Shown here one piece after another: positions 1 to 58,253 of a stretch of 64,000 nt of DNA (its first letter is position 1; each line of letters starts with the position of its first letter). Location of the stretch: NCBI GenBank assembly GCA_963966185.1, contig CAWZYM010000406.1:174001-238000 (forward strand), in the 5' to 3' direction. The position numbers and the translations under genes are program-made. Source of the DNA: Rhabditoides inermis (taxonomy: Eukaryota; Nematoda; Chromadorea; Rhabditida; Rhabditidae). The notes beneath the pieces were generated by a model, which was given only the letters and a program-made list of their open reading frames with translations, was not told where the DNA came from and ran no database searches.

Positions 1-2353
1 ACGGTGTATCGCGAATTGCACTTGTTCGGAAAGGGAGATGTTACCATTGGAGATTTCGCCGTGATAGACAGCAAGTACATCAAGGGTGAGTGATGAATTT
101 TTGAAATGTGTACATGAATGATGTTCTTGTAAGGATTCGACATGAAGGACTCATACGACAAATGGAGAAAGCGCCGCGGCACAATGTCAGGCGATGATGC
201 TGAGAGAGCGCGTCAGTTCGCGCAGTTTCTGTTGTGGGAGGTTCGATAATTTGTTTTCTTGCGAAAGCGATTTTTTTAATCTTTCAGCATAGTAGATGGA
301 GAGGGGCGATACGTCGTTACACTGCGCGCGCACTCACTGCCACTGACGGGAAAATTGACCTCGATCCTCAGATGATCAACGTATGGAATCGTGAGTCATT
401 TAACAATAACGTTCCTTTCATGGTCATAAAACCATAGGTTTCCTATCGACGATAACTTCTCAAGATCCAGATGATCCAGCTGTGATGCACTGCCACCGGA
501 CGATCCTATACTATGCTGTGTAAGTGTTTTGTTCATTAAAACATATATCATAGTTTGTAGGAGATGGACATCTCGTCGCACTCCTGGTAGCGACAGCGAC
601 CTCCCGTAAGTGAATTACCTAAATTTAGACGTACAAGTTCATGTTATTATAATTGCTATTATATTATAGTTGTTACTGTTTTTTTTGTAGGCACTGCCCC
701 GCTCGATTGAGGAGGCTTCTGTCGAGGCACACTCCCGTCTTCAGCAAAGATGATCTAGACTTTCCGCTCCCTCCGAGTGACGAACGCGATGCTGATACCG
801 AAGAAGACCCAACAGAAGACGTTCGCACTTCTCGTCAACGCGGTGGGTCTCGCATCAAGAAACTTTTTGCGGGCGTGAAGATGGAAATGGAAACGGACAA
901 CGGCGAGTCGCTAGAGCAGAACGGATACGGTGAGGAGCAAGAGGATGGTGAGGGCGAGCCTGCGGGCGACCCAGACGAGCTGCTAAAAGAAGACGATGAA
1001 GTCGAGCCGCAGGAAAAGCCACTTGAGGAGGACGATGTGGACAAGTCGGCAGAGGTACTGCTGAAGGAGGGCGATGAGAGCGATCCAGGCGAGCTCAAGG
1101 AAGACAGCGAAGGCGAGCCGGAGGTGCAACTGGAGGAGGCCGTATGCGACGAGCAGCCGCCCGACGGAGAAGACGAGCTACTGGTGGAGAAGGAGGAATT
1201 AAGGAAAGGACACTGCGACCAGTCGATAAACGGAGTTGGGCATGAAGGAGATGAGAATCTCCTCAAGTCATCGAAGCGTGGTCGGCATACGCTTTCATTG
1301 ACGAACGACGAAGACAACAGCTCGGATGATACCCTGATATCTTCCAGCAGCAGCGACAGCGACCAGTATGTTCTGGATGAGTGAGTACAGGATGTTATAC
1401 GGATTTATCTTTACACCTTAAATTTTTTTCAGATCGCTGTCATCTGATGGATCTCTCGACTTGGATCTTAGCGACAATGACTTGAACGATCTGTCTAGCA
1501 AGTGAGTTTTTTTGTTTAGTTTTTTCATATTGTTTTTTTTTTACAAATGTGCATATCCAGGAGAACCGCAAATGTGCCCAAGAAGAAGAAAGCCAAGCTT
1601 GAAGTGTGTCGACAGCGTTCGACGACGGCAGGAAAGGCATCTACAATCAGGAAACCTGCAGCTATCAAGAAGCGATCTAGGCAGTCTAAGATCAGTGAGG
1701 AGCAGAAGGTTAATGATAGCAAAGATGTCTGTGTTGATTTGTTTTGATTTAATATACAATTTCTTCAGTCGCACGCCACCACCAAGTCGGCGGCCACCAC
1801 GTCGAACCAGTCATCGACAACCACGAAACGGGACAATCAGACTAACAGTTCAACTATGAAGAGGTAAATTTCTTTGTGTGTATGTCTTGTGTGTACTAGT
1901 GTGTGTCTGTGTGAGTGTACCGGTGTGTGTCTGTGTGAACGATGTTACGACAGAAATTGTTTCAGTTCTAACTCTGCCGGTTCTGCTTCCTCTTCTGCTC
2001 CTCCCATACGCGGAAACAAGCCAGCAACGGTAAACACGGATAGCCCGTCAGCTTCCCGCACCAAGACTCAACTCGCCAAGGCCGATACATCTCGCACGTC
2101 AGGTGCTCCTGTTGTTACGAATACAAGGAAACGCGAAAACAAGACATCATCCAGTACTACCAAAACTGTGCCTGCTGTCCCCGACACTGGAGTCGTTGTT
2201 CCTCGAAAGAAACGGTTGGTTTTTTTTTATCTGTGAACGTATGTATAATTAATTTTATGTTTTTGTATTTTTATTCCAGTTTACATATGTTTTTTTTACA
2301 GCGTCGTCCTTCCCAAGCCACCACAGCAGCCCGGTTTTTCGTCTACGAAGTAA
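1..2353 (+). CDS. 3' part of an unrecognised multi-exon gene for an acidic, probably nuclear protein
   Basis: Eleven exons keep one open frame: 1-85, 134-240, 288-390, 438-519, 561-605, 691-1380, 1433-1501, 1561-1708, 1769-1863, 1966-2214 and 2302-2353 (1725 nt, 574 residues, TAA at 2351). Donors are mostly GTGAGT or GTAAGT-like; acceptors are T-rich (TTTTTTTCAG, TTTTTACAG). Introns are 42-102 nt. The 5' end lies outside the window. Residues 1-140 are Arg/Trp-rich and probably helical. The long exon (about residues 141-371) is strongly acidic, with Glu/Asp tracts and repeated LLKE-type segments. PKKKKAK near residue 400 resembles a nuclear localisation signal. The C-terminus is rich in Ser, Thr, Lys and Pro. 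I recognise no family and assign no function. It lies upstream of a Pif1-type helicase remnant and could be cellular or transposon-borne. Reading-frame continuity over ten introns makes the model strong; the function is open. Confidence 0.75.
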
Positions 2354-4820: not shown

Positions 4821-5364
4821 AGTCAAAAAGATGTGGGTACGATGTTTTCAGGATGCTGCTCCAACACTCGGAGACGGGCAAAGCGCTCTTCTCCCGTTTC
4901 CAATTCCCGATCCGTTTGGCCTTCGCCATCACCATCAACAAGGCACAGGGAGCCACTCTGGGAAAGGTGAGCCCTTATTCCTAGATAGTATAGTTTGTTT
5001 CTTGTAGGTGGGTCTGATCTTCACCAACCCGGTCTTCAGCCATGGTCAGTTGTTTGTTGCCATGAGCAGGGTGCGCGATCGGAAGTCGATCCGAATCTTC
5101 ACTCTTCCTTTTTTTCCCTCTCTTCCTCTTTTTCCTTCTCTCAAGTCTCCTCTCGCATTTTTTCTATTGTCAATGCAACGATAACATTACTCTTATTCGC
5201 TCTAACACTGCCTTTCTCTATATTTATATCTATATGCTTCTCTCTAATTTTTCCTCTCTCCCTCTCTCTCTCCGTTCTTTGTCAATGCATTTTTAGAGAT
5301 GGAATTAAATTTTTTGCTTGGACATGGAGCTGCCGGACAGCGAGATTTTGATGGTTTTTAACCG

Positions 5365-6563
5365 GATAATGAAAGCTAAATTGAGAACTCACAACGTGGA
5401 CTACAGCCGAGGACGTAAACTCAACTATCTGCAAAGTTTCATACAAATCGGTTTAGTATGAATCAAGTCATGAAGGCGGAACTAATCAAAATCGCAAAAG
5501 AAATGCGAGGGCGCGCGCTTCTTTTGATAATTTGACAATATGTTCCTCACACCGTAACCAATAACGCTGAATTTTGCAGGTACGCACTATTTGTTGAAAC
5601 TATCTGTTAAACGTATTTACGGAAAATGAAGCGGAGATGTTTCTTAGATGAGACACGTTCGCTGCGAACAGCTACAAAATCGATTACTTTCGTGGTTTTT
5701 CTTCGAAATATAGGCAATGAGTGTAATTGGAAAGTATTTACGAAGTGGACTGCGTCCTAAAGTAATATGTAAACTTTCTGAAAAGTTTCACGCAAATTGG
5801 TTCAGTAGAAACGGAGATATGCACGCGGACACACAAGAAAAAGTGCAAAAATGATAATGTTTGGTGGTTTTCCGACCAAAAAAAAGAGGTAATGAAGACA
5901 AAATTGAGAACTATCACAAAGTGAACTGCATCAGAAAACGTAAACTCAACTATCTCAAACGTTTATTGCAAATTGGTTCTGTGTGAATCAAGTTGTGACC
6001 GCGGAAATACTCAAAATCGCAATAGTGAGGCGAGTGCGCGCGCGCATCTCTTGCTAATTTGGTTATATTTTCCTCAAACCGTAACCAATAAGGGTGAATT
6101 TCCAGGTTCGTGACAGAACTATTTGTTAAAAGTTATTATGAAAACAAGAAGCGGAATGGTTTCTTAGGTAAAGAGCTTTCGCAGCGGACAGCACCAAAAT
6201 CGGGGAATTTTGAGGTTTTTCTACCAAATATAGGCAATGAGTGTAATTGGAGAGTGATCACAAAGTGGACTGCATCCTGAAGTACTATGTAAACTTTTTG
6301 CAAAGTTTGACGCAAATCGGTTCGGTAGAAACGGAGTTATGCCCGCGGAAACACAAGAAAAAGTGCAAAAGTGACCATTTTTGGTGGTTTTTCGACCAAA
6401 TATGGACGTAGAGGAGGAACTGAGAGGTGTCTGAATTTTGTCGTCGTCCTTGCAAAGGAATACAACTTTCTACCAAGTTTCATGTGAATTGGTTGAGTTT
6501 GAAGCTAGTTATGACTCTGGAATGACGGACAGAGACAATAGGACATTTTAGTAGAAAAGGCGA
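5365..6563. repeat. Two tandem copies of a ~520-bp non-coding repeat plus shared tail
   Basis: The segment starting near 5365 (AATTGAGAACT, then GTAAACTCAACTATCT) recurs near 5888. The AGGCAATGAGTGTAATTGGA segment at 5713 recurs at 6232, a period of 519 bp. Each copy contains the words AAACGGAG and AAGAAAAAGTGCAAAA. The second copy runs into a tail (gacagagacaataggacattttag, ending GGCGA) that resembles the tail of all later units, immediately before the hairpin at 6564. Between 5185 and 5365 lies T/C-rich sequence without a visible gene. Confidence 0.7.
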
Positions 6564-7523
6564 CTAGCCCGAGCGGCGCTGGCGCGCCGCTCGGGCTAGG
6601 GCCGCCTTCGGCGGCCTCATCACTCAAACATCAAAAATGAAATCATCACTCAAATCTAATTTCATAACTAAATTATGTCCACAAACCTCTAAACCAACTA
6701 AGAAGTACATTACATAACGAAATACCAAAAACGAAGACAATTGAACGTTGTTTACAAACTTGTTTACTTGTTTACACTTTATGTAAACAACATTTTTGAA
6801 CTCGCCTCTAAGTCTACTACACGTTGTACATCTTTATAACACGTTTTCAGGTTGTTTACATATTTGTTTACTTGTTTACAACATCTGTAAACAACATTAT
6901 TGAACTCACCAATAATGTTACTAAACATCTGACATCTTTGAAACACATTTTCAGATTGTTTACAAAGTTGTTTACTTGTTTACATCACCTGTAAACAACA
7001 TTTTTGAACTCGCCTCTTGGTCGACAACATCTTAGATACCTTCAAAACAAACTTTAAATTTGTTGACAAAGTTGTTTACTTGTTGACAAACATCTAAACA
7101 ACAACACCGCTGACTTGTCCCCAGGTCACATACCAAGTTTGGACTCTTTGGCATCAAAACTGACCGAGATACAACATTACCATATTTGGAATTATGCAAA
7201 TGAGGTCAATAATCAAAGTTCAAATCACCGACCGTACAGTACCCTAACCACAAAAGGGCATCTCAGTAGCTTGAAAACGAAGCATAGTTTACATAGAACT
7301 GGCCATCTCGCTGATTCTATGTTCTCAAATATGCAAATTTTCTAGGGAGAACCCATATAAGGAACGGTCAGATCAGGACCCCAGGTAAACGATTGCGTGC
7401 GGTGACCACCTGAGATCTAATTTCCATACCTCAACCCCCATCGATCACTACAACTTGAGATACAACCCCGGACAGACAGACAAACAAACTCCATAGCATA
7501 ATTTATAGGGGGTGGGCGGGTGA
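6564..7523. repeat. Class II hairpin unit with forkhead-like repeats
   Basis: Begins with a 36-bp palindrome (6564-6599, CTAGCCCGAG...CTCGGGCTAG) and a second hairpin, GGGCCGCCTTCGGCGGCCT. Then come several TTGTTTAC(TTGTTTAC) and GTAAACAACA motifs (about 6755-7110), one 118-bp-type segment (about 7115-7300, with a CATATTTGGA core and ATGCAAAT), and the tail CATAGCATAATTTATAGGGGG. No coding evidence. Confidence 0.75.
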
Positions 7524-7630: not shown

Positions 7631-7809
7631 TCAACTCATCAAAAATCTAATCTGAATTCTCTTATGTCTCTAGTACACCTCAGAAGTCGAAATCTAAAGT
7701 TTTGGAGTTGTTTACTGTGTTGTTTAATTGTTTATCTGACTTGTGAACATTACCTTTGAACTCAGTATTTCGAGTACTACATGTTGGAGAACTTTAAAAC
7801 ACATTTCTG

Positions 7810-8307
7810 ATGAAATGTTTCCGATATATGGACGATATTCTAGTCATTTACCGAGAAAATGATGTGATTCAAAAAATAAAACACGACATTTATCACAGCT
7901 CACTCACTCTGGAACAAACCAATTCCGATATCAACAACACTGCATTTTTAGATTTGGACATTCATTTAGAAAATAACAAATTCACTACAAAACTGTATAA
8001 CAAAACCGACGATTACAATTTTCATGTGGTTCGTTTTCCACATGTCAATAGTAATATATCTTTGAACGTATCATATAACTGTTTACATGGAGAGTTAGTT
8101 AGAATATTCCGTTGCTGTTCGAAATATGAAGATTTCAAAATACGATGCAAACAGCTATTTGAAACGTATATCAAAAATGGACACTCGAATAATACCGTGA
8201 AAGTACGCATAGCAACCTCTATACTTTCGAATAGTGTATTAAAATGTAAATATAATATGCTTTCAAAACGTGATTTCTCAAAATTTTGCGAAGAAGTGTT
8301 TGAGTAA
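7810..8307 (+). pseudogene. C-terminal part of a Penelope-like reverse transcriptase
   Basis: A 165-residue open frame starts just before the RT catalytic box YMDDILVIY (about residues 6-14) and continues with FLDLDIHLENNKFTTKLYNK and an aromatic segment FHVVRFPHVNSNI, typical of RTs whose thumb follows YxDD closely. RT motifs upstream of YMDD are absent: the DNA just before the ATG is array sequence (TTTAAAACACATTTCTGA), so this is a 5'-truncated insertion. The frame ends at TAA 8305 and no GIY-YIG endonuclease follows. RTs of this kind copy the element's RNA into DNA. The Penelope-like assignment rests partly on the hammerhead-type sequence 284 nt downstream, since such elements are known to carry hammerheads; another non-LTR family is possible. 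The frame itself is undamaged but the protein is incomplete. Confidence 0.65.
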
Positions 8308-8590
8308 CAATTTCGATCTACACCAGTGATCTACCCATCGCACTCTCTCTTGCTCTCTCGACTGTATCACCCGTTCTCGAATGATCTGCGCGCACGTCTT
8401 ACGTCTTATCAACACAGCTGCGCGCACTTGCCTCTTTCATTCTAGCGTGTGCACTGATCGCAGTCAGCCGCTACCTCTCTGCTCTCAAAAGTTGTTTCCG
8501 TCACCACCATTCCTGAACATTTATTCACTAATGTCGAAACCTTTTGTTGTACATTATTCCCCCAACCCCGAAAACTATTCACAAATACTT
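8308..8590. other. 3' non-coding region of the RT insertion
   Basis: Unique sequence between the RT stop codon and the ribozyme-like element. It contains CT-rich words (CACTCTCTCTTGCTCTCTCG) and GTCGAAACC at about 8552-8560, which resembles the GAAA strand of a second hammerhead, but no matching CTGANGA strand was found. The array resumes at about 8725. Confidence 0.4.
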
Positions 8591-8670
8591 TTCCATCAAC
8601 TTCATCTCTGATGAGACTCCGGGTTGATGGAAGGCTCAAGTGGTAAGATGCTAGGAGTCGAAACCACTTG
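8591..8670 (+). ncRNA. Hammerhead-type ribozyme with permuted, pseudoknotted strand order
   Basis: Core strands CTGATGA (8608-8614) and GAAA (8660-8663) are present with exact helix registers. Helix I: 8603-8607 pairs with 8646-8650 (CATCT/AGATG). Helix II: 8615-8620 with 8654-8659 (GACTCC/GGAGTC). Helix III: 8637-8644 with 8663-8670 (CAAGTGGT/ACCACTTG). The cleavage triplet is GUA, so cleavage is predicted after A8645. A further 10-bp helix (8591-8600 with 8623-8632) encloses the CTGATGA strand. Linear order is helices I', II, III, I, II', III', so all three cross. The molecule can be read as two hairpins whose loops kiss to build the hammerhead core. Standard hammerheads have a cyclic 1-2-3 strand order; here it is 2-1-3. 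Activity is inferred only. Confidence 0.6.
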
Positions 8671-8724
8671 ATCCAAATTCGCGTTTTCTTCGTGATTACT
8701 CAATTGCGTGTTATTGATTTATCA

Positions 8725-9120
8725 CAAATTTGTTTACTTGTTTACTTCACTTGTAAACAACAAATAAGAACTCATTACTTGGTCTAGTACACGTTAGATA
8801 CCTTTGAAATGAGATTTGGAGTTGTTTACTTTTTTGTTTACTTGTTTACATGTCAAATAACTATTGAAATCAAACTCAGTACTTTGTGTAGTACACGTTA
8901 GAGATATTTAAAACACATTTCTGAGTTGTTTACAAACTTGTTTACTTGTTTACTTCACTTGTAAACAACAAATTTGAACTCAGTACTTGGTCTTGTACAC
9001 GTTAGATACCTTTGAAATGAGATTTGGAGTTGTTTACTTTTTTTGTTTACTTGTTTACCTAAGTTGTTTACCTAAAATTTTGTATTTGTTCACTTGTTAC
9101 CTGTACCAAGTTTGAGTCCT
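8725..9120. repeat. 208-bp satellite with forkhead-like sites, first block
   Basis: The phrase ACTTGGTCT(A/T)GTACACGTTAGATACC at about 8777 recurs at about 8985, a 208-bp period. Each unit has TTGTTTACTTGTTTAC and TTGTAAACAACA. No coding evidence. Confidence 0.75.
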
Positions 9121-9769
9121 CTACCTTGAAAACTAACCGAGTTATTAATTTTAGAATATTTTTGAATATTAAAAAAGGCGAAAATTGAAAAATTAAATAA
9201 AATTCAAACATTTAATAAAAATCTGAAATAATTCATGAAAAAATGTATGACGGTAGTGATTATTAAATAAGAAAATCCAGGTGTCAACTCTCACCTAGAC
9301 GAAAGTTACGGGGTCGTAAAGTGAAATTGGAAGTTTATGCTAATTTATCTCAGATGAGAGATGACAGGTGACAAGTGTGACGGTACCTGGCAGGTACTCA
9401 GGACCGAGGGTGTCATTGGTGAAAGGGATGAGAGATTTGAAAACAAAAATTTCAAAAATTTCAAAATCCATGTGGTCCCCCCTTTGGAAAATTCAAATTT
9501 CTTCCGACAGGTGTATCTGTATCTACCTGTACAGGTGAGCTAGGTGAAAGAAAATAGAACGATTGCGTGCGGTCGAGGAACCGATGAAAACGTCCCGAGT
9601 TGAGTCGGATTGGTACTTTGGGACTTGAGATACGTGCCCGGAACTACAGACACGTACCATAGCAAATTTTATATAGCCCCGCCAGGGCGACAAGGCTCGC
9701 GCGCCTTCGGCGCGCTCGCCTTTCCGCTGTATAACCTTAAAATATATACTCATAACATAACTTTAAACA
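9121..9769. repeat. AT-rich unit end with single H3 hairpin
   Basis: AT-rich sequence with runs of A and the CAGGTG-rich segment (ACAGGTGACAAGTGTGACGGTACCTGG) found in later units, then the tail CATAGCAAATTTTATATAGCC. At 9694-9720 only the H3 hairpin (GGCTCGCGCGCC...GGCGCGCTCGCC) follows the tail; H1 and H2 are missing. Confidence 0.65.
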
Positions 9770-10975
9770 ACAACTCTGAAGTCAGTGCCCGGTCTAGTAC
9801 ACGTTAGATACCTATTAAATGAGATTTGTACTTGTTTACTTTTTGTTTACTTGTTTACATGTCAAATAATTAATAAAATCGGACTGAGTACTTTGTGTAC
9901 TACATGTTAGAGACCTTTAAAACACATTTCTGAGTTGTTTACAAACTTGTTTAATTGTTTACTTCACTTGTAAACAACAAATATGAACTCAGTACTTGGT
10001 CTAGTACACGTTAGATACCTTTAAAATGAGATTTGGAGTTGTTTACGTATTTGTTTACTTGTTTACATGCCAAATAAACAATAAAATCGAACTGAGTACG
10101 TTGTGTACTATATGTTAGAGATCTTTAAAACACATTTCTGAGTTGTTTACAAACTTGTTTACTTGTTCACTTCACTTGTAAACAACAAATATGAACTCAG
10201 TACTTGGTCTAGTACACGTTAGATACCTTTAAAATGAGATTTGGAGTTGTTTACGTATTTGTTTACTTGTTTACATGCCAAATAAACAATAAAATCGAAC
10301 TGAGTACGTTGTGTACTATATGTTAGAGATCTTTAAAACACATTTCTGAGTTGTTTACAAACTTGTTTACTTGTACACTTCACTTGTAAACAACAAATAT
10401 GAACTCAGTACTTGGTCTAGTACACGTTAGACACGTTTAAAATGAGATTTGGAGTTGTTTACTTCTTTGTTTACTTGTTTACTGTTGTTGTTTACCAAAA
10501 AAATTGAACTTGTTTACTTGTTACCTTAAAACACATTTCTGAGTTGTTTACAAACTTGTTTACTTGTTCACTTCACTTGTAAACAACAAATATGAACTCA
10601 GTACTTGGTCTAGTACACGTTAGACACGTTTAAAATGGGATTTGGAGTTGTTTACTTCTTTGTTTACTTGTTTACTGTTGTTGTTTACCAAAAAAATTGA
10701 ACTTGTTTACTTGTTACCTGTACCAAGTATCAAGTCTCTAGGTCAAAAACTGACAGAGTTCATATAGAAGTGTCACAAATTTCAGATTCTAAGTCCAGAG
10801 TTGTTAGTGAACCCTTATAAGGAGTTATGCAAATGATATGTCAGAGTAGCCATCGCGTCTCAGGTAGTACCAAACCTTAACTTCAAAGTTGTATCGTGAT
10901 TCGTTTAAAGAGTAATGAGTTATGAGTCTGGACAACAAACAGACACCATAGGAAATTTTAGGGAGAGAGAAGAGA
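9770..10975. repeat. 208-bp satellite, second block, and unit tail
   Basis: AGTACTTGGTCTAGTACACG occurs at 9991, 10199, 10407 and 10600 (periods 208, 208, 193). Units carry paired TTGTTTAC motifs and one GTAAACAA each. From 10720 the sequence runs into a tail with ACAACAAACAGACACCATAGGAAATTTTAGGG just before the hairpins at 10976. Confidence 0.8.
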
Positions 10976-11219: not shown

Positions 11220-12110
11220 TTGGGTCCCTACTACCGTACCCTAACCCTAAAAGGATAACTCAGTAGCATCAAAACTGACAGAGATACAAAATAACCATAT
11301 TTGGAAATATGCAAATGATGTGAAAGACGAAAATTGTAATCACGACCCCTACCGTACCCTAACCCTAAAAGGATAACTCAGTAGCATGAAAACTGACAGA
11401 GATATGAAATAACCATATTTGGAAATATGCAAATGAGATGAAAGACGAAAATTGTAATCACGACCCCTACCGTACCCTAACCCTAAAAGGATAACTCAGT
11501 AGCATGAAAACTGACAGAGATATGAAATAACCATATTTGGAAATATGCAAATGAGATGAAAGACGAAAATTGTAATCACGACCCCTACCGTACCCTAACC
11601 CTAAAAGGATAACTCAGTAGCATGAAAACTGACAGAGATATGAAATAACCATATTTGGAAATATGCAAATGAGATGAAAGACGAAAATTGTAATCACGAC
11701 CCCTACCGTACCCTAACCCTAAAAGGATAACTCAGTAGCATGAAAACTGACAGAGATATGAAATAACCATATTTGGAAATATGCAAATGAGATGAAAGAC
11801 GAAAATTGTAATCACGACCCCTACCGTACCCTAACCCTAAAAGGACAACTCGGTAGCAAGAAAACTGACAGAGAAACAAAACAACCATATTTGGAAATAT
11901 ACAAATGAGATAAAAGATCGAAATTGTAATCACGACCTGTACCGTACCCTAACCCTATAGGGACAACTCAGGAGCATCAAGATTGACAGAAATACAAAAT
12001 AACCATATTTGGAAATATGCAAATGAGGTGAAAGACGAAAATTGTAATCACGATCTCTACCGTAGCCTAACTCTAAAAGGAGAACTCAGTAACTCAAAAA
12101 CGAAGCATAC
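11220..12110. repeat. 118-bp tandem satellite, about 7.5 copies
   Basis: The start of CCCTAACCCTAAAAGG occurs at 11238, 11357, 11475, 11593, 11711, 11829 and 11947, with a diverged copy at about 12065: a period of 118 (once 119). Middle copies are nearly identical; edge copies diverge. Each unit holds CCATATTTGG (a perfect CArG box) and ATGCAAAT (the octamer) 7 bp apart. A normal unit tail follows to 12338. Confidence 0.9.
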
Positions 12111-12338: not shown

Positions 12339-13656
12339 CTAGCCCGAGCGGCGCTGGCGCGCCGCTCGGGCTAGGGCCGCCTTCGGCGGCCTCACCACTC
12401 AAACATCAAAACTGAAATCATCACTCAAATCTAATTTCTTAACTAAAGTCTGTTCACAAACCTGTAATCCAACTAAGAAGTACATTACAACACAAAATAT
12501 CAAAAATGAAGACAATTGAACGTTGTTTACAAATTTGTTTACTTGTTTACCCTTTATGTACACAACATTTTTGAACTCGCCTTTAAGTCTACTACACGTT
12601 ACACATCTTTAAAACACGTTTTCCGGTTGTTTACATTTTTGTTTACTTGTTCAATACATTTGTAAACAACATGTTTGAACACACCAAGAATGTTACTAAA
12701 CATTTGACATCTTTAAAACACATTTTCAGGTTGTTTACAAAGTTGTTTACTTGTTTACATCGTCTGTAAACAACATTTTTGACTTCATCTCTTGATCTAC
12801 ATCATCTTAGATACCTTCAACACAAACTTCAAATCTGTTGACAAAGTTGTTTACTTGTTGACAAACATTCAAACAACAACATCGCTGACTTGCCTCCAGG
12901 TCACATACGAAGTTTGGACTCTTCAGCATGAAAACTGACCAAGATACAACATTACCATATTTGGAAATATGCAAATGAGGTCATACATCAAAATTTTGTT
13001 TCTCCATCCGACAGTAGCTTAACCCTAAAAGGACACCCCAGTAACACTGAAAATGACCGAGATACAACATTACCATATTTGGAATTATGCAAATGAGGTC
13101 ATTAATCAAAAATTTAATCACCGACCCTACAGTACCCTTACCCTAAAAGGATACCTCAGCAGCACTAAAATTGACCGAGATACAACATTACCATATTTGG
13201 AATTATGCAAATGAGGTCAGAAACGAAAATTTTATTTGTCGACCCTACACTAACCTAACCTTAAAAGGACACCTCAGAAACATTAAAACTGACCGAGATA
13301 CAACATTACCATATTTGGAAATATGCAAATGAGGTAAGAAACTAAAATTTAATTTGTCGACCCTACAGTACCCTTACCCTAAAAGGACATCTCAATAGCT
13401 CAAAAACGAATCATAGTTTACATAGAACTGGCCATCTCTCAGATTCTATGTTCTCAAATATGCAAATTTTCCAAGGAGAACCCATATAAGGAATGGTCAG
13501 ATCAGGACCCCAGGTAAAATTTTGCGTGCGGTCACCACCTGAGATCTAATTTCCATACCTCAACCCCCATCGATCACTACAACTTGAGATACTCATCCGG
13601 ACAGACAGACACACAAACATACACCATAGCATAATTTATAGGGGGTGGGCGGGTGA
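12339..13656. repeat. Class II hairpin unit containing a second 118-bp subarray
   Basis: Starts with CTAGCCCGAG...CTCGGGCTAG (12339-12374) and GGGCCGCCTTCGGCGGCCT. Forkhead-like blocks fill about 12525-12860. The words CC(G/A)AGATACAACATTACCATATTTGGA recur from 12939 at 13057, 13175 and 13293 (118-bp period). Ends with CATAGCATAATTTATAGGGGG. Confidence 0.8.
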
Positions 13657-15683
13657 CTAGCGGGCCGGAGGCTCGCTTCGCTCGCCTCCGGCCCGCTAGT
13701 GGCGGCGGCTTCGCCGCCGCACTGTGCTTCGAGGCTCGCGCGCCTTCGGCGCGCTCGCCTCTCCGCGTCAAATCATCAACACTTCAAACCTAAACTCTAC
13801 TATGGCTCCAGTACACATCAGAGATCGAAATCTCAAATTTTATAGTTGTTTACATGTTTGTTTACTTGTTTACCTGACTTTTAACACTAACTTTGAACTC
13901 TTCTATGGCTCTAGTACACATCAGACATCAAAATCTCTAGTTTTGGAATTGTTTACAACTTTGTTTACTTGTTTACATAACTTGTAAACACTATACCTCA
14001 AATCTCCTGAAGGTTTAGTATCGATTAGATATCAAAATCAGGAGATTTGGAGTTGTTTACTTTTTTGTTTACTTGTTTACTTAAGTTGTTTACCTAAAAA
14101 ATTGTAATTATTTACTTGTTACCTGTACCAAGTATGAACCTTCTACCTCAAAAAATAACAAAGTTATAAATTTTATAACATTTCTGAGTATTAAAAAAAC
14201 GGAAATTGAAAAAATTAATTAAAATTCAAACAATAAATACAAATCTGAAATATTTCATGAATAAAGGTTTTACGGTAGTGATAAGTAAATAGAAAAATCC
14301 AGGTGTCAACTCTCATTTAGACAAAAGTTACAGGGTCGTAAAGTGAAATTTGACGTTTATGCTGATTTATCTCAGGTGACAGGTGAGAGGCCACAGGTGA
14401 GATGGTACCTGGCAGGTACTCAGGACCTAAGGTGTCATTGGTGAAAGGGATGAGAGAATTATTCATTTTTCTAAGAAGTTGAAACTCAGATGTACTGTAT
14501 TTCATGTTTTGCATCTTGCCTGATTGATCCTGTCAGCGGTCCATATGCTCAACTGCAAAAATGAGCCACATTTAGTTGAAAATCGAGGTTTTTTGAAAAA
14601 ATGAAATCCTTCTACAGTGAAGCGAAAAATCTGAATCTTTGTCAGTAAATATTAGTTTTTGAGTTATGAATTACTGTGCAAAATCCAGGTCTCAACTCTT
14701 AGATAGTAAGGGATTGTAGTTGATCTAGTGAATCATGAAATATGATTTTTATTTTCAGTAATAGAGCTGAGCATACGTGTTTGTGTTGATTGTGTCATAG
14801 AGAGTAATTTACCATAAAAATTTGAAAAATTAATATTGAAAACGAAAGAAGTTATGATCAAAAATGTAAAATTTCTACGAAAATTTGAATATTCATATTT
14901 TGAAAACGGAATGAGTATTTCATTTGAAATTGAAATGGTGTGAACGGCCAAGTGTCTTCTATTATCAGCTGAAGTTTGAAATTTTAGTCTTCAAAACTGA
15001 CAAAGATATTCAAGGTTTTTGCGTTTTGCATCTTACGTGATTGATCCTGTCAGAAAATGAAAAATGCTGTAAAACTTTTTTGAAATGGTTTTTCGTAATG
15101 AAACTGTAAAACTGTAAATAACACGCATGTTTCTTGTTACTGTGCGATTTTCATGACAAAATATGAAGTTTGAAGGTAGGTTTACATAGAAGTGTACCGA
15201 GTTGTTAGTGAACCCATTTAAAGAAATGAGATAGGAACCTATGCGATTGTGTGTCTGTTAAGAGTGATTAGTTGATCTTAAGTTTGTAGTTTGAGTGTGA
15301 AATGTCTCTTCAGTCTTGAGTTATGTCCCGCTGAAATTTTGGAAATTCTATATAAACCCATATAAGGAGTTATCGGAATGAGTCCTAGTGACGTGTGGCA
15401 AGTCAATATAGTGTGCTAAGTCTAAGTTTACAGTATGAGATTCACATCTTGAAACATGGACTGAGCATATGGGTGAAAAGTTTTTCAGGCTATGTCAAGT
15501 TCTTAGTAAAGTCATACGGTAAGTAGAACTGTGAGCGTGAAAATGAAACGATTGCATGCGGTCACCATAAGAGTGTTAAGTTTGGAGTATGAGCTGTGTA
15601 GGTGTAATAGTCACTGAGCTAGATGCTGTGAAAAAGGTAGCCACACCCGTCATAGCAAATTTTATATAGCCCTGCCAGGGCGA
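13657..15683. repeat. Higher-order array unit, type A (2027 bp)
   Basis: Cassette H1-H2-H3 at 13657-13761, then forkhead-like blocks (to about 14090), an AT-rich stretch, the CAGGTG/GGTACCTGG segment (about 14375-14450), the SSU-rRNA-like word CCTGATTGATCCTGTCAG at 14519, a second related word at 15037, and the tail CATAGCAAATTTTATATAGCCCTGCCAGGGCGA. Nearly the same sequence occurs at 36501-38523. Confidence 0.85.
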
Positions 15684-18600
15684 CTAGCGGGCCGGAGGCT
15701 CGCTTCGCTCGCCTCCGGCCCGCTAGTGGCGGCGGCTTCGCCGCCGCACTGCGCTCCGAGGCTCGCGCGCCTTCGGCGCGCTCGCCTCTCCGCGTCAACT
15801 CATAAAAACTTCAAATCTGAATTCTCCTATGGGTCTAGTACACATCAGACATCGAAATCTGTAGTTTTGAAGTTGTTCACGTTTTTGTTTACTTGTTTAC
15901 TCATTATGTAAACATCAGATATGAACTCTACTATGGGTCTAGTACACATCAGACATCAGAATCTTCACTTTTGGAGTTGTTTACAATTTTGTTTACTTGT
16001 TTACCTGACTTGTAAACACTATACCTTAACTCTCCTGAAGGTTTATTATCGATTAGATATCAAAATCAGGAGATTTTGAGTTGTTTACTTTTTTGTTTAC
16101 TTGTTTACCTAAGTTGTTAACATAAAAAAATTGTAATTGTTTACTTGTTACCTGTACCAAGTATGAACATTCTACCTCTAAAAATAACAAAGTTATAAAC
16201 TTTTATACCATTTCTGAGTATTAAAAAAATCGAAATTGAAAAATAAATTAAAATTCAAACACTTAATAAAAATCTGAAATAATTCATGAATATAGGTATC
16301 ACGGTAAGTAGCGATAATTAAATTAGAAAATGCAGGTGTCAACTCTCATCTAGACAAAAGTCACGGAGTCGTGAAGTGAAATTCGAAGTTTATGCTAATT
16401 TATCTCAGGTGAGAGGCGACAGGTGAGATGGTACCTGGCAGGTACTCAGAACCTAAGGTGTCATTGGTGGAAGGGATGAGATAATTAATCATTTTTCTAA
16501 GAAGTTGAAACATAGTTGTACTGTATTTTACGTTTTGCATCTTGCCTGATTGATCCTGTCAGCGGTCAATATGCTCAACTGCAAAAATGAGCCACATTTA
16601 GTTGAAAATCAAGGTTTTTTTGAAAAAGTGAAATCCTTCCACAGTGAAGCGAAAAATCTGAAACTTTGTCAGTAAATATTAGTTTTTGAGTTATGAATTA
16701 CAGTGTAAAATCCAGGTCTCAACTCTTATATAGTAAGGGAATGTAGTTGATCTAGTGAATCATGAAATATGATTTTTATTTTCAGTAATAGAGTTGAGCA
16801 TACGTGTTTGTGTTACTTGTGTCAAAGAAAGTGATTTACCATAAAAGTTTGAAAAATTAATATTGAAAACGAAAGAAGTTATGATCAAAAATGTAAAATT
16901 TCTACGAAAATTTGAATATTTATATTTTGAAAACAGAATAAGTATTTCATTTGAAATTGAAATGGTGTGAACGGCCAAGTGTCTTCTATCATCAGCTGAA
17001 GTTTGAAATTTTTGTCTTCAAAACTAACAAAGATATTCAAGGTTTTTGCGTTTTGCATCTTATGTGATTGATCCTGTCAGAAAATGAAAAATGCTTGTTT
17101 ATTTACTTGTTTACTGTTGTTATTTACGAAAAAATTGAACTTGTTTTCTTGTTATCTGTAATAAGTTTGAACCTTCTACCTTGAAAACCAACCGATATAC
17201 ATTTAATACAATTTTCAGTATTAAACAGACGAAAATGGAAAAAAAAATTAAAGTTGAAAATTTATTAAAAATCTGAACTAATTCATGAATACATGTATCA
17301 CGGTAGTGATGATTTAAAAGAAAAATCCAGATGTAAACTCTCATCTAGACGAAAGTTACAGGGTCGTAAAGTGAAATTTGAAATTCATGCTAATTTATCT
17401 CAGGTGACATGTGAGAGGCGACAGGTGAGACGGTACCTGGCAGGTACTCAGGACCTAAGGTGTCATTGGTGAAAGGAATGAGAGAATTAAAAATAGTTTT
17501 TCTAAGAAGTTGAAACATAGTTGTACTGTATTTTACGTTTTGCATCTTGCCTGATTGATCCTGTCAGCGGTCAATATGCTCAACTGCAAAAATGAGCCAC
17601 ATTTTGTTGAAAATCAAGGTTTTTTGAAAAAGTGAAATCCTTCCACAGTGAAGCGAAAAATCTGAATCTTTGTCAGTAAATATGAGTTTTTGAGTTATGA
17701 ATTACTGTGCAAAATCCAGGTCTCAACTCTTAGATAGTAAGGGATTGTAGTTGATCTAGTGAATCATGAAATATGATTTTTATTTTCAGTAATAGAGCTG
17801 AGCATACGTGTTTGTGTTGATTGTGTCATAGAGAGTAATTTACCATAAAAATTTGAAAAATTAATATTGAAAACGAAAGAAGTTATGATCAAAAATGTAA
17901 AATTTCTACGAAAATTTGAATATTTATATTTTGAAAACGGAATGAGTATTTCATTTGAAATTGAAATGGTGTGAACGGCCAAGTGTCTTCCATTATCAGC
18001 TGAAGTTTGAAATTTTAGTCTTCAAAACTGACAAAGATATTCAAGGTTTTTGCGTTTTGCATCTTACGTGATTGATCCTGTCAGAAAATGAAAAATGCTG
18101 TAAAACTTTTTTGAAATGGTTTTTCGTAATGAAACTGTAAAACTGTAAATAACACGCATGTTTCTTGTTACTGTGCGATTTTCATGACAAAATATGAAGT
18201 TTGAAGGTAGGTTTACATAGAAGTGTACCGAGTTGTTAGTGAACCCATTTAAAGAAATGAGATAGGAACCTATGCGATTGTGTGTCTGTTAAGAGTGATT
18301 AGTTGATCTTAAGTTTGTAGTTTGAGTGTGAAATGTCTCTTCAGTCTTGAGTTATGTCCTTCTGAAGTTTTGGTAATTCTATATAAACCCATATAAGGAG
18401 TTATCGGAATGAGTCCTAGTGACGTGTGTCAAGTCAATATAGTGTGCTAAGTCTAAGTTTACAGTATGAGATTCACATCTTGAAACATGGACTGAGCATA
18501 TGGGTGAAAAGTTTTTCAGGCTATGTCAAGTTCTTAGTAAAGTCATACGGTAAGTAGAACTGTGAGCGTGAAAATGAAACGATTGCATGCGGTCACCATA

Positions 18601-48464: not shown

Positions 48465-51400
48465 ATGAGCGGTAGTGATTCGGAATCCAGCGACGACACC
48501 GTCAACGGAAACCCTAGCACGCCGCAGCAGCCCGCGCAAGCGCCGCAATCCAACCTACGCGACGAGCGTGCAATCCAACGCGAGCAAGTGAGAAATCAGC
48601 AGCGTGAGCAGCGCGAAGCACTTGAAGCTATTAGAGCCGCGCAAGCCGCCGCAGACGCGCAAGCAGCTCTAGACGCGCAAGCAGCAGCAGACGCGCAAGC
48701 AGCAGCAGACGCGCAAGCAGCTCTAGACGCGCAAGCAGCAGCAGACGCGCAAGCAGCATTGGCGCAAGAGGAGGAGGAATTGGAGATGGCAGGGCTGTCT
48801 CTCCTCATTCCCGAGATCGGGAAGTGGCCAAAATTCAATGGAAATGGGTCTCTGACTCGATTCACCAAGGGGCTGAATGAGCGTGCGAACTTTCTCGGCT
48901 GGGATGCAGCGAAAGTCACCAACTTGATGCCTTTCTTGCTCGAGAATGAGGCGCGCGAGCGTTACGACAACTATGACAGCGCGACCAAGGGTGATTACAC
49001 GGAAGTGATCAAGCAGTTGAAGATCGACTTCAACACCGAGCTGTACAAGGGTCGTCTCATGAAAAACCTCACGTCCGTGCGCCAGGGCAATAGTGAGAGC
49101 GTGAATCAATTCTCGAACAGGATCAGCGATCTCGCTGATGACCTGGGAGAGAGTGATGGCGGAAAAGAGTCCCTCAAGAAGGCCAACTTCTGGAGAGGTC
49201 TCAGGAAGCCTATCCAGGATCAGATGATCATGTGGGGGAAATCTTCTGGTACTTTCGATGAGCTGAAAAAGGCAGCGTCGGAAATTGAGATTCGCATCCG
49301 CATGGTAGATGATCAGAAGGAAACGGACTCTCTTTCAGCATCGGTAAATGCGATGAGCGTGACTGACAATTCGCGGGATGCCAAGCGTTCTGATTCGCGC
49401 AGCGACTACGGTAGATCTGACAATAAGCGCGATCGCCGAGGCCGCTATGACCGCAAACACGAAAGCTCGCAATCGCAGCACAACACCTCGCACAACCACA
49501 GCACGCGCAATGAGCGTGACAACAATCATTCTCGTGAGCATTTCCAGCGTTCCAATTCGCGCGACGCGTACAAAAACAGGGGTTATTCCAGCGAGCGTCA
49601 ACGTCACGATTCTCGTGACAGGCGTGATAGGCGCGATTCCCGTGACAGGTACGATCAGCGTGAGCGTCACTACTCGCGTGACCGTCGCGACTCGCGTGAC
49701 CGTCACTATTCGCGTGATCGTCGCGATTCGCGTGACCGTCACTACTCGCGCGACCGTCGTGACTCGCGTGATCGTCGCGATTCGCGTGACTATCGCGATT
49801 CTCGTGATCGCCGCGACTCTCGCAATCGCCGTGAGCACCGTTCGCGTTCCCATGACCGCTCTCGCTACCAAGACAGGTCCCGCTCTCGTGATCGGAGAAA
49901 CGGCCACGGTGGCAGAAACGATTCTAGGGATCGCCGTCACTATTCGCGTGACAGGTCTTACGGGCGAGACCACTCGAGGGAGAGATATCGCTCTGGAGAG
50001 TGCAGACGCGAGAGTCTGCCGAGAGAACACTCACCCGAGAGAGAGGATTACAACCAGTCTCGCGACCAGGACTACGGTAATGAGAAGCGAGTGCGCTTTG
50101 ACAGCCGCAGCCCTATGCGCTCGTCATCCGCTCGCATTCCGTTCACCATGTTCATTGTGACCATGTGTCTTCTCGCTACCGGAGCAGATGCGTTTCAAAT
50201 CTGCGGAAAGGGAAAGAGTGGACATGCGGTGGCATTCCCGGAACCGATTGATTGTAATACGCGCAAACTCAGCAGGGTGCTTCTCACACAAGCAGATGTA
50301 TACACGCAGCGCACTGAACCAGTCAAATTTGCAGCGTACAATTGTTTTAATAAGACGCGCCAGATTTGCACATCCAGCTTTCTACACTGGACTCTCGACG
50401 TCAGCTCCGACAACACCTACACCACTCCGATTGGAGAGATGGAGTGTCGGGAAATGGCATTGAAGCGCATTTTTGAGGGCAAAGCGTTGCGTCGTTTCAG
50501 CGAGCATGTGTTCGGCACAGACAACCAGGTCACGTTCTCCTATCCTCTTCTGGGCGAGAAATGTACGACAACTACAAACGTCTACATTGAAGAGGGTGAG
50601 ATAGCCACATTTGATGGTTACACAATGTTGTCAAACATTGGTGATCTAGCCGGTTGTAAAATAGCATCGCGAGTCTGCCAAGGTCATCATGGCATAGTCA
50701 TCTGGAACAATAATAAAGCGAATCTGTTGGGTCTGTGCAAATATGAGCTCAGCATCTCGGGAGTAGCCTATGCGACCGAGAGACATGTGGTTATTGACAA
50801 ACTACAGGCTGCATTTGTATTCACCAATAAATCAACAGAGCGCTCGCACAGATATGACTGGTGCATTCCTGAGACTGCGCAAGCAATGGATAATGGCGTT
50901 TACATTGACTTTCCCGAGAGAGCATTGCATGCATACTTGCGTTATATGTCATTCCCTGACATCATGCGACAGAAGGTCAAACTGATAGACTCGATCAATG
51001 AGCGGCATAGAAACCATTCGAGTGAGCTTACGGTCAAGCGTCATCCAAAACTCACTCGCATAAAGAGGGACGGCCTAGCCATCCTCAAAGGGTCGCCGCA
51101 TAAGACAGATCGCTATATCCATGCAATCAACGAAACGGGTCTGGCTAAATCGTCTGAAGCAGCTCACCTGGCTAGACACAATCAGGCCGCACCCAATTTC
51201 ACGTTGATCGATAATACGAGCATTCCCCATGAGCAGCGCCAAGATGAGCGTCACAAAGAGCTTAATACCAAGGTCCAATATCTTGCTGTCAAAATTCAAG
51301 AGGACCTGAACAGGGATTTTAGCTATCTTTGGAATAGAATCTGTTTGGTTACAAATGCCCAGTACCATTCGATCCGCGCAATGGCACTGTTGGATGCGAC

Positions 51401-52394
51401 AGCCGCAGCCCGCATGCTATTACAGCGAGATGACATTTCTGCCGATGAGGCTGGTGGAACCCTAATCGTGCAGACTTGCCGCAATGTCACACCAACCAGC
51501 GTGCACTACGACAATAAATACAATGGTGTTTGTTACAAGGACACTCCTGTAGTCGTTGGTGACAGTCTCATGTTTATTCAGCCAGGCACCAGGGGTGATC
51601 TCATGACCAGCTCACCGGTAGTAGATTGTGCGCATCAACGGATGGCCATCTACAAGGATGAGAAAACAGGTGAATGGAAATCCCCAGTTGGCAAAGTGCA
51701 TGTTACTGAGTTGAACCTAGCGTTGCAAGACCCAAGCCGTTCTAATGATCTCGTATTCAACGCGCCACCAATCTACCACAGTGATCTAGCAGGCATTCAA
51801 TCTGCGCTGCAAATGATTTACAGCAGGGTAGCGCGCATTGAGGACAACTCCAATCTAGCAGGCAGTGAGAGACGCACTGACGCAATCGCCGCAGGCACGG
51901 AGGGAGTGATCAAAGAGATCGGGCATGCCGGTCACGTGATTGAGCAGAATGCAAGGGAGATAATGCAGAAGGGAGCGAGTGAACTAGCAACCACTATTTC
52001 AACGTCTGCACTCTCTTACATCATAATCTTTATCAGCGTTATTCTCATGTGTCTTCTGATTGGCAGTTGCATTTGGTGTTCTATCAAAGTGACCATTGTG
52101 AAGGGATTTTGTAAGAGATTTCTTTGCTGTTGCCGCAGGGACAAACAGACAAGCAGTGAGTATGCGAGTGTTAATGTACGCTATAACACAGCGGATCAGC
52201 GAGTGGATATTGATCCTGCCGCTACTCGCCCTAATACTCCCACAGCTCCTTCCCACTATCCTAATTTGGATACACAGAGCAACATTTCGAATGATTCGAG
52301 AAAGAGCAGGCTTTCGACAGCGCATAGCACGTACCCTGACCTTTCTGCCTATCCTAATCCAGCTGGTGTGTGCCGTGAGTGGAACAGACATTGA
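48465..52394 (+). CDS. ORF1: Gag fused in frame to an Env-like membrane glycoprotein (1309 aa)
   Basis: One uninterrupted frame. Residues 50-105: Ala-rich DAQAA repeats. About 110-300: a helical Gag/capsid-like region (FLLENEARERY, LTSVRQGNSESVNQF). About 303-550: a very basic SRDRRD-type repeat region, no zinc knuckle. 559-576: hydrophobic segment with signal-peptide features, ending in ATGADA before a Cys-rich part. 577-1184: ectodomain with many Cys, NxS/T sites (629, 788, 850, 889, 911, 917, 1007) and a furin-like RIKR at 865-868. The segment around 930-1055 (LQRDDISADEAGG, C1005, C1023, C1055) is reminiscent of class III fusion proteins of the chuvirus/herpesvirus gB type, though this is weak. 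1185-1205: membrane anchor. Tail 1206-1309: CCC cluster, PTAP (1259-1262), YPNL (1265-1268), YPDL (1290-1293). Gag would stay in the cytosol and signal peptidase could free Env. Fusion order and the late motifs are seen directly; roles are inferred. Confidence 0.85.
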   Translation: MSGSDSESSDDTVNGNPSTPQQPAQAPQSNLRDERAIQREQVRNQQREQREALEAIRAAQAAADAQAALDAQAAADAQAAADAQAALDAQAAADAQAALAQEEEELEMAGLSLLIPEIGKWPKFNGNGSLTRFTKGLNERANFLGWDAAKVTNLMPFLLENEARERYDNYDSATKGDYTEVIKQLKIDFNTELYKGRLMKNLTSVRQGNSESVNQFSNRISDLADDLGESDGGKESLKKANFWRGLRKPIQDQMIMWGKSSGTFDELKKAASEIEIRIRMVDDQKETDSLSASVNAMSVTDNSRDAKRSDSRSDYGRSDNKRDRRGRYDRKHESSQSQHNTSHNHSTRNERDNNHSREHFQRSNSRDAYKNRGYSSERQRHDSRDRRDRRDSRDRYDQRERHYSRDRRDSRDRHYSRDRRDSRDRHYSRDRRDSRDRRDSRDYRDSRDRRDSRNRREHRSRSHDRSRYQDRSRSRDRRNGHGGRNDSRDRRHYSRDRSYGRDHSRERYRSGECRRESLPREHSPEREDYNQSRDQDYGNEKRVRFDSRSPMRSSSARIPFTMFIVTMCLLATGADAFQICGKGKSGHAVAFPEPIDCNTRKLSRVLLTQADVYTQRTEPVKFAAYNCFNKTRQICTSSFLHWTLDVSSDNTYTTPIGEMECREMALKRIFEGKALRRFSEHVFGTDNQVTFSYPLLGEKCTTTTNVYIEEGEIATFDGYTMLSNIGDLAGCKIASRVCQGHHGIVIWNNNKANLLGLCKYELSISGVAYATERHVVIDKLQAAFVFTNKSTERSHRYDWCIPETAQAMDNGVYIDFPERALHAYLRYMSFPDIMRQKVKLIDSINERHRNHSSELTVKRHPKLTRIKRDGLAILKGSPHKTDRYIHAINETGLAKSSEAAHLARHNQAAPNFTLIDNTSIPHEQRQDERHKELNTKVQYLAVKIQEDLNRDFSYLWNRICLVTNAQYHSIRAMALLDATAAARMLLQRDDISADEAGGTLIVQTCRNVTPTSVHYDNKYNGVCYKDTPVVVGDSLMFIQPGTRGDLMTSSPVVDCAHQRMAIYKDEKTGEWKSPVGKVHVTELNLALQDPSRSNDLVFNAPPIYHSDLAGIQSALQMIYSRVARIEDNSNLAGSERRTDAIAAGTEGVIKEIGHAGHVIEQNAREIMQKGASELATTISTSALSYIIIFISVILMCLLIGSCIWCSIKVTIVKGFCKRFLCCCRRDKQTSSEYASVNVRYNTADQRVDIDPAATRPNTPTAPSHYPNLDTQSNISNDSRKSRLSTAHSTYPDLSAYPNPAGVCREWNRH
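52102..52394 (+). other. ORF1/ORF2 overlap in different frames
   Basis: The Pol frame is open from 52102 (after TGA at 52099) and overlaps the coding region for the ORF1 tail. Pol is in the +1 frame relative to ORF1, so ordinary -1 slippage would not reach it. The first ATG in the Pol frame is at 52162. Confidence 0.8.
52117..52137 (+). promoter_or_regulatory. Candidate splice acceptor for a Pol mRNA
   Basis: The pyrimidine-rich TTTCTTTGCTGTTGCCGCAG ends at 52137, 24 nt before the first Pol ATG (52162), with no other ATG between. It could give a spliced Pol transcript. This is a sequence-based guess. Confidence 0.35.
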
Positions 52395-57513: not shown

Positions 57514-58253
57514 TAAACAACATTTTTGAACTCGCCTGAAAGTCTACTACACGTTACACATTTCTAAAACACAGTTTCGGGTTGTTTACACATTTGTTTA
57601 CTTGTTTACAACATTTGTAAACAACATTTTTGAACACACCAAGAATGTTACTAAACATTTGATATCTTTAAAACACATTTTCAGGTTGTTTACAAAGTTG
57701 TTTACTTGTTTACATCACCTGTAAACAACATTTTTGAACTCGTCTCTCGATCTACATCATCTTAGATACCTTCAAAACAAACTTTAAATTTGTTGACAAA
57801 ATTGTTTACTTGTTGACAAACATGTAAACAACAACATCGCTGACTTGCCTCCAGGTCACGTACCAAGTTTGGACTCTTTGGCATCAAAACTGACCGAGAT
57901 ACAACATTACCATATTTGGAATTATGCAAATGAGGTCATTAATCAAAATTTAAATCATTGACCCTACAGTACCCTAACTCTAAAAGGGAATCTCAGTAGC
58001 TCAAAAACTAACCATAGTTTACATAGAACTGGTCATCTCTCAGATTCTATGTTCTTAGATATGCAAATTTTCCAGGGAGAACCCATATAAGGAACGGTCA
58101 GATATCGATCCCAGGTAAACGATGCAGAGCGGTCACCACCTCAGGTCTAAGTTCCATACCTCAACCCCTATCGATCACTACAAATTGAGATACAACCGCG
58201 GAACGACACACAGACAGACACCATAGCATAATTTATAGGGGGTGGGCGGGTGA
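57514..58253. repeat. Class II unit, right part (continues 46691-46914)
   Basis: Resumes with TAAACAACATTTTTGAACTCGCC. Forkhead blocks fill to about 57840, then one 118-bp-type segment (CCATATTTGGAATTATGCAAAT) and the tail CATAGCATAATTTATAGGGGG. Together with the left part it makes a 964-bp unit. Confidence 0.85.

Follow-up and report, generated by a model that had tools for sequence, protein, structure and literature searches.

What is a complete set of hammerhead ribozyme parts doing in a strand order that is not a cyclic permutation of the canonical one? The question is raised by positions 8591-8671 of a 64,000-nucleotide (nt) stretch of DNA from the nematode Rhabditoides inermis (assembly GCA_963966185.1, contig CAWZYM010000406.1, positions 174,001 to 238,000, forward strand), called here the window. 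It is very probable that a truncated Penelope-like retrotransposon (PLE) lies with its 3' end in the window and bears a predicted type-CSG hammerhead there, which would cut between A8645 and A8646 and process PLE transcripts.

Anatomy of the permuted hammerhead motif

Direct reading of the letters from 8591 to 8671 on the forward strand reveals that no hammerhead core base is missing and that four helices fall into register (Table 1), as claimed in an earlier note made from the sequence alone, which had described the CTGATGA and GAAA cores, the GUA triplet and the hammerhead register of the helices. The blocks run 5' to 3' in the order C-S-G, that is, the CUGAnGA block (C, 8603-8620), the cleavage-site block (S, 8636-8650) and the GAAA block (G, 8654-8671), and this order makes helices I, II and III each cross both others. 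The fourth helix, P4, folds the C block into a hairpin. Both the non-cyclic order, which recurs in the matching loci of the same genome, and the 10-base-pair (bp) fourth helix with its linkers TT, GG and CTA agree with what had been proposed. The lengths given for helices I (5 bp) and II (6 bp) were also correct, but helix III, put at 8 bp, has 9 bp including the U16.1-A15.1 pair, and the motif therefore ends at 8671. The lowest nested fold consists of two hairpins, P4 and III (-34 kcal/mol, z = -4.8 versus shuffles), with the strands of helices I and II lying in their loops; the "kissing hairpin" architecture suggested in the note is therefore an apt picture. Block order, core (CUGAnGA, GAAA, U16.1-A15.1 and H17), stem covariation and the bridging helix P4 all correspond to type-CSG, the name given to a non-circular permutation by Eckert et al. 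2023, who named the six block orders (PMC10085705).

Table 1. Features of the PLE copy and its hammerhead, in window coordinates
Position	Strand	Feature	Basis
7809-8718	+	5'-truncated PLE copy; fixed 3' end near 8718 (ATTGATT)	copies agree in 3' end and vary in 5' truncation point
7810-8307	+	C-terminal remnant of PLE reverse transcriptase, 165 amino acids (aa), RYMDDIL	98% identity to C-terminal part of the 706-aa open reverse transcriptase frame of locus L009
8591-8600	+	P4, 5' strand; on the C strand, P4 joins helices I and II at their distal ends	10 bp with 8623-8632; compensatory changes across families
8601-8602	+	linker TT	direct reading
8603-8607	+	helix I, C-block strand CATCT	5 bp with 8646-8650; covariation
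8608-8614	+	catalytic core C3-A9, CTGATGA	CTGANGA in 6/6 families
8615-8620	+	helix II, C-block strand GACTCC	6 bp with 8654-8659; covariation
8621-8622	+	linker GG	direct reading
8623-8632	+	P4, 3' strand	pairs with 8591-8600; covariation
8636-8644	+	helix III, S-block strand, last base U16.1	9 bp with 8663-8671; covariation
T8644, A8645	+	cleavage triplet GUA (U16.1 = T8644, H17 = A8645)	direct reading
8645-8646	+	predicted cleavage, A8645 (H17)/A8646	analogy with hammerheads and with type-CSG (PMC10085705)
8646-8650	+	helix I, S-block strand AGATG	covariation
8651-8653	+	linker CTA	direct reading
8654-8659	+	helix II, G-block strand GGAGTC	covariation
8660-8663	+	catalytic core G12-A14 and A15.1 (GAAA; GAA 8660-8662, A15.1 = A8663)	in 6/6 families; L028 copy lacks one base
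8663-8671	+	helix III, G-block strand	covariation
8672-8718	+	conserved tail, ribozyme to element 3' end	93-96% identity to three subfamily copies, versus 67-73% in the reverse transcriptase region (global alignment, gaps counted)

The window was scanned with a finder open to any of the six block orders, which gave a single match, C-S-G with 5 + 6 + 9 = 20 bp; the opposite strand gave none. In 200 dinucleotide shuffles of the window, where P4 was not demanded, 19 matches of at least 13 bp were obtained in any order, the longest of 19 bp and none at 20 bp. In the scan of loci described below, five-fold block-shuffled sequence gave a single match. No Rfam family reached its gathering score in the window, and in six loci no hammerhead model of Rfam gave a match at E<=1. 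Neither a cyclic order nor an Rfam match, as expected of canonical types I-III, was found in the window, which holds C-S-G only. Across the genome, RF00163 gave 0 matches among the 73 of 24084 candidates scored, a result that says little on canonical hammerheads, the controls having been silent too.

Host element, recurrence and covariation

The motif lies downstream of reverse transcriptase (RT) sequence. The assembly from which the window comes (172.6 Mb, 599 contigs) was searched with a 103-nt query; the best 40 of 214 first-look candidates were scored, and the search retrieved element copies with the common 3' end and variable 5' cut points listed in Table 1. A GIY-YIG frame precedes the RT in loci L016 and L017, the latter with Pfam matches to RVT_1 (33.9 bits, cut-off 29.6) and GIY-YIG (28.0 bits, cut-off 22.6), and the frame of the next unit begins with GIY-YIG in L061 (28.4 bits) and L059 (26.4 bits); the short piece of L057 and the frame of L079 gave no GIY-YIG match. 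A 251-aa RT query against the genome, with 150 of 519 candidates scored, listed matches from 100% down to 48% identity, many of them in frames of 934-1013 aa that are free of interruptions, often arranged head to tail. A protein search, in which the 7992 candidates sharing most words were scored, yielded 54 proteins, among them relatives on small contigs. The organism was stated for 13 of these matches (12 Pristionchus nematodes and one bacterial metagenome-assembled genome, MAG). In all six of the small-contig proteins checked (P0001, P0002, P0003, P0006, P0014 and P0039) GIY-YIG is on the N-terminal side, and a CxC pair (C136 and C138 in the numbering of the L009 frame) is nearly invariant in 16 aligned proteins. 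With RT and GIY-YIG, tandem copies, pseudo-long terminal repeats (pseudo-LTRs) and 5' truncation, the element is, as judged from sequence, a PLE, of which the window copy retains RT only and the intact frames were read in parts; the naming of PLEs as hammerhead carriers in the earlier note thus proved pertinent. The host is a nematode: the assembly contains 368 exact copies of the SL1 leader, versus 0 of the reversed control, and the SL1 model gave 50 matches in the genome, none above the Rfam cut-off.

The motif was found in five families of this genome (RT identity down to 48%), set apart by helix sequence, and in one from a separate MAG contig. The cleavage triplet is GUA in family A (the window) and in family E (L062, L070, L071), which reads CTGACGA, and GUC in families B (L065), C (L060, L061, L067-L069, L074, L076-L078) and D (L063, L064, L072, L073, L075). 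The sixth family comes from contig JAITMD010000012.1, deposited as a Flavobacteriaceae MAG, with an RT relative at 38% identity and a C-S-G hammerhead about 300 nt past the RT frame. Its ends encode the same stretch, as in a tandem unit, its 909-aa frame has no Pfam GIY-YIG or RT match, and it is probably eukaryotic DNA within the MAG. Four RT relatives were found among genome contigs (L079-L082), with the motif in L079; the finder detected none in L080 and L082. Among subfamily copies, 84, 84 and 82 of the 84 nt of the window motif are identical in L017, L018 and L024, whose RT region and 3' untranslated region (UTR) are 67-73% and 55-64% identical to those of the window in global alignment.

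Out of 78 loci of this genome, 67 contain a finder match (68 matches), all in the order C-S-G and none in any of the other five orders, and the homologues in canonical order that the note had considered were not encountered. Among loci cut out by the RT search (L029-L058), 25 of 30 gave a match. A less biased check than the six motif-found family representatives is the RT-only sample, 20 loci picked from the RT table across identity classes with 1.6 kb taken downstream: an intact C-S-G hammerhead, matched by the finder in the expected register, follows the RT in 17/20, and in L075 the motif is complete except for an A.C mismatch in helix I.

Compensatory changes were found in all four helices, as the note had asked of true homologues. 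When the six families, each with a single representative, were aligned by core register, both sides had changed at 8/10 positions of P4, 5/5 of helix I, 4/6 of II and 6/9 of III, and when the 3' strands were re-dealt among families the observed pairing was reached in only 1 (P4), 4 (I), 2 (II) and 2 (III) of 720 permutations, a test that favours pairing because the representatives were found by motif and bulged U's were removed by hand. A second alignment, built with a covariance model containing P4 and III only, drew on 48 sources (the window and 47 of 82 loci), gave 45 matches in 30 distinct rows, and keeps damaged copies such as L019, L028, L053 and L059; helices I and II, absent from the model, were not fitted. 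Paired cells amounted to 95.3% versus 74.9% in shuffled alignments, and pairing fell to 28-45% when partners were slid by 1-3 columns. Both sides change in 17/25 pairs (shuffle mean 13.0; 17 reached in 1/500 shuffles), including 7/8 pairs of P4, and the covariation score is 0.546 versus 0.191.

Copies with lesions in the core or helices do exist (L028, L015, L022 and L019), as would be expected if the window copy were a broken or rearranged canonical hammerhead or a chance match. Against this stand the C-S-G order of six families, the lack of any canonical-order match in the 78 loci or in L079-L082, and the 20 bp reached by no shuffle, and such an origin is extremely improbable. Chance and rearrangement are contradicted by covariation, the shuffle test and the uniform C-S-G order across loci. 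The observation is real, and recurrence and covariation in other loci settle the point beyond the shuffle test.

Some other copies deserve mention. The tandem junction at L059:314-433 shows an upstream unit that stops just past the helix I S-strand, with the G block absent and the 5' region of the next unit following. Downstream of the RT copy in L066, an array of repeats with inverted copies takes the place of the hammerhead. A family C-like fragment in L024 (918-992, minus strand) keeps the S and G blocks and misses the C block. In L081, a distant PLE on a MAG contig, 904-bp direct repeats flank the RT, and each (760-875 and 5318-5433) contains ACCCT-CTGATGA, GTC-AGGGT and GAGGTC-GAAAC in C-S-G order, with no helix II strand beside the core; these repeats are possibly a variant or decayed relative.

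Position in the element and predicted role

With the RT and motif tables taken together, at least 34 of the 54 frames of 934-1013 aa listed as uninterrupted are followed by a motif, and at least 25 of the 54 have one on both sides, as in the pseudo-LTRs of PLEs. These counts are lower bounds, since the motif tables hold the best 40 of 214, 237, 174 and 67 candidates and family B falls outside them. The distance from the end of the RT match to the motif is nearly constant within each family (209-214, 277-288, 314-315 and 268-276 nt), and motif-to-motif spacings under 7 kb are of 3.8-5.6 kb, plus one of 2.1 kb. The flanking motifs form the pseudo-LTR arrangement of PLEs.

In the fold proposed for the RNA, P4 forms a hairpin whose loop carries the C block, and helix III forms a neighbouring hairpin whose loop carries GAA and the partner strands of helices I and II; kissing of the two loops by way of helices I and II would restore the hammerhead core. 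In a transcript that spans a single unit or several, each repeat would form the motif, and a cut between H17 and the following base would release RNAs with the G block and tail at their 5' end. Since the ribozyme flanks the open reading frame (ORF) on both sides in longer, often head-to-tail copies, its likely job is the cutting of tandem or read-through transcripts into units.

The same two hairpins might instead act chiefly between molecules or units: in such a trans reaction, a C-block hairpin would pair with the S-G hairpin of another RNA or tandem unit and cut it, and the permuted order would not fold inside a single motif. The nested fold, with its independent hairpins and complementary loops, would permit this, tandem copies place several motifs on one possible transcript, and, according to a title cited in PMC10085705, the small hammerheads of PLEs act as dimers when they cleave RNA. 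However, all six families keep the hairpins adjacent, with a linker of few nt, and type-CSG RNAs cut in cis during transcription (PMC10085705), so that action mainly in trans appears unlikely.

The conserved tail, which runs from the motif to the fixed 3' end as a recognition site would, bears on another explanation, namely that the conserved structure persists because it serves the retrotransposon protein as a signal for binding or initiation, with cleavage absent or incidental. In vitro insertion by another PLE was independent of hammerhead cleavage (PMC11167929). Nevertheless, the core bases stay constant while the helices covary, and a plain binding site needs no joint presence of CUGAnGA, GAA, A15.1-U16.1 and H17, which leaves a signal without cleavage rather improbable.

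Several results weigh against a cis-cleaving ribozyme that processes PLE transcripts. Out of five covariation measures one, further pair types, was not significant (reached in 68/500 shuffles). Families B and C have one additional U before helix II, and D has one bulged after its first pair. Eleven of the 78 loci gave no match: L015, L019, L022 and L028 are lesioned, L059 lacks the G block and L066 has no motif, the last two being the failures of the RT-only sample, where L059 ends after the S block; the others are L031, L043, L044, L054 and L055. The window copy is itself a 5'-truncated relic. Moreover, the DNA 3' end of the element lies about 73 nt past the predicted cut in family A, and downstream of the G block in families C, D and E as well, so new copies do not owe their 3' end to the predicted cut. 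For the other PLE just mentioned, hammerhead mutants were without effect on insertion in vitro, and internal initiation has been reported (PMC11167929).

Related systems and other observations

The earlier note knew of no described example of this topology; the same strand order has, however, been published as type-CSG, and the topology is therefore not new. Type-CSG was described from two metagenome sequences, CSG-1 and CSG-2, whose in vitro cleavage at the hammerhead site has rates of 0.004 and 0.026 per min (PMC10085705). By that description, they share with the window motif the C-S-G order, the core bases, a helix bridging I and II and a size of about 80 nt; their covariation is modest, and the main text as consulted states no host (PMC10085705). 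In contrast, the present motif belongs to the genome of a nematode, where many copies of it go with a retrotransposon, and it occurs in five families plus one elsewhere, some of them with the additional U at helix II. What is new here is the home of type-CSG, a PLE of a nematode, and the support for it. A literature search by titles and abstract beginnings, with many journals outside it, found no report linking type-CSG to a genome or PLE. Host phylum, mobile-element context and four-helix covariation together make type-CSG biology testable in a nematode, and the data suggest that a non-circular permutation can be a stable, inherited ribozyme form over deep divergence.

Among PLEs, Naiads have GIY-YIG before the RT, CxC between the domains, pseudo-LTRs and high copy number in invertebrates. 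The present elements resemble them, by this definition, in the N-terminal position of GIY-YIG, the intervening CxC, the pseudo-LTRs and the high copy number. PLEs with an N-terminal endonuclease, the Naiads of Craig and colleagues in 2021, reportedly lack canonical hammerhead motifs, whereas the elements studied here bear a permuted hammerhead that Rfam models do not report. If they do lack them, the motif described here is the one overlooked, which suggests why canonical searches would call such elements ribozyme-free and miss their hammerheads. It is conceivable, and we hold it tentatively, at slightly less than even confidence, that Naiads carry type-CSG in their pseudo-LTRs as a rule, clade-wide in a widespread animal retrotransposon, and that CSG-1 and CSG-2 come from such elements.

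The PAc element of Anolis is likewise a PLE with a ribozyme in a UTR repeated in tandem copies and 3' ends set by the start site of reverse transcription (PMC11167929). Unlike in PAc, the present motif is non-cyclic, starts about 200-320 nt past the RT match, or about 600 nt past it in L076, and accompanies GIY-YIG before the RT.

Viral contigs were searched as well. An RT profile fitted 18 stretches, with no relative among them, and two C-S-G-like patterns retrieved 100 and 60 stretches, in which the finder saw no C-S-G hammerhead (160 loci). Eight loci of a 53-56-nt group from the second pattern resemble related coding sequence. Two other matches were seen among viral contigs, a type II-like (GSC) hammerhead candidate with 8+3+11 bp in an IMG/VR contig (L238, about 1291-1378, minus strand) and an AT-rich SCG finder match in one of the 160 loci (L224).

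Elsewhere in the window, a Ty3/Gypsy-like LTR-retrotransposon pol ORF with RT_RNaseH and integrase (48465-56061, +) overlaps a preceding 1309-aa ORF that matches the Monjiviricetes fusion glycoprotein (PF24664, 32.8 bits), an env-like protein. The PLE copy sits between blocks of a 104-bp satellite rich in TTGTTTACTTGTTTAC, whose arrays occupy 6747-7103, 8729-9058, 9760-10675, 12522-12782, 13788-14089, 15806-16127 and 57514-57833, among others. A further tandem array, of 118 bp and 7.3 copies with CCCTAACCC-like words, occupies 11231-12091.
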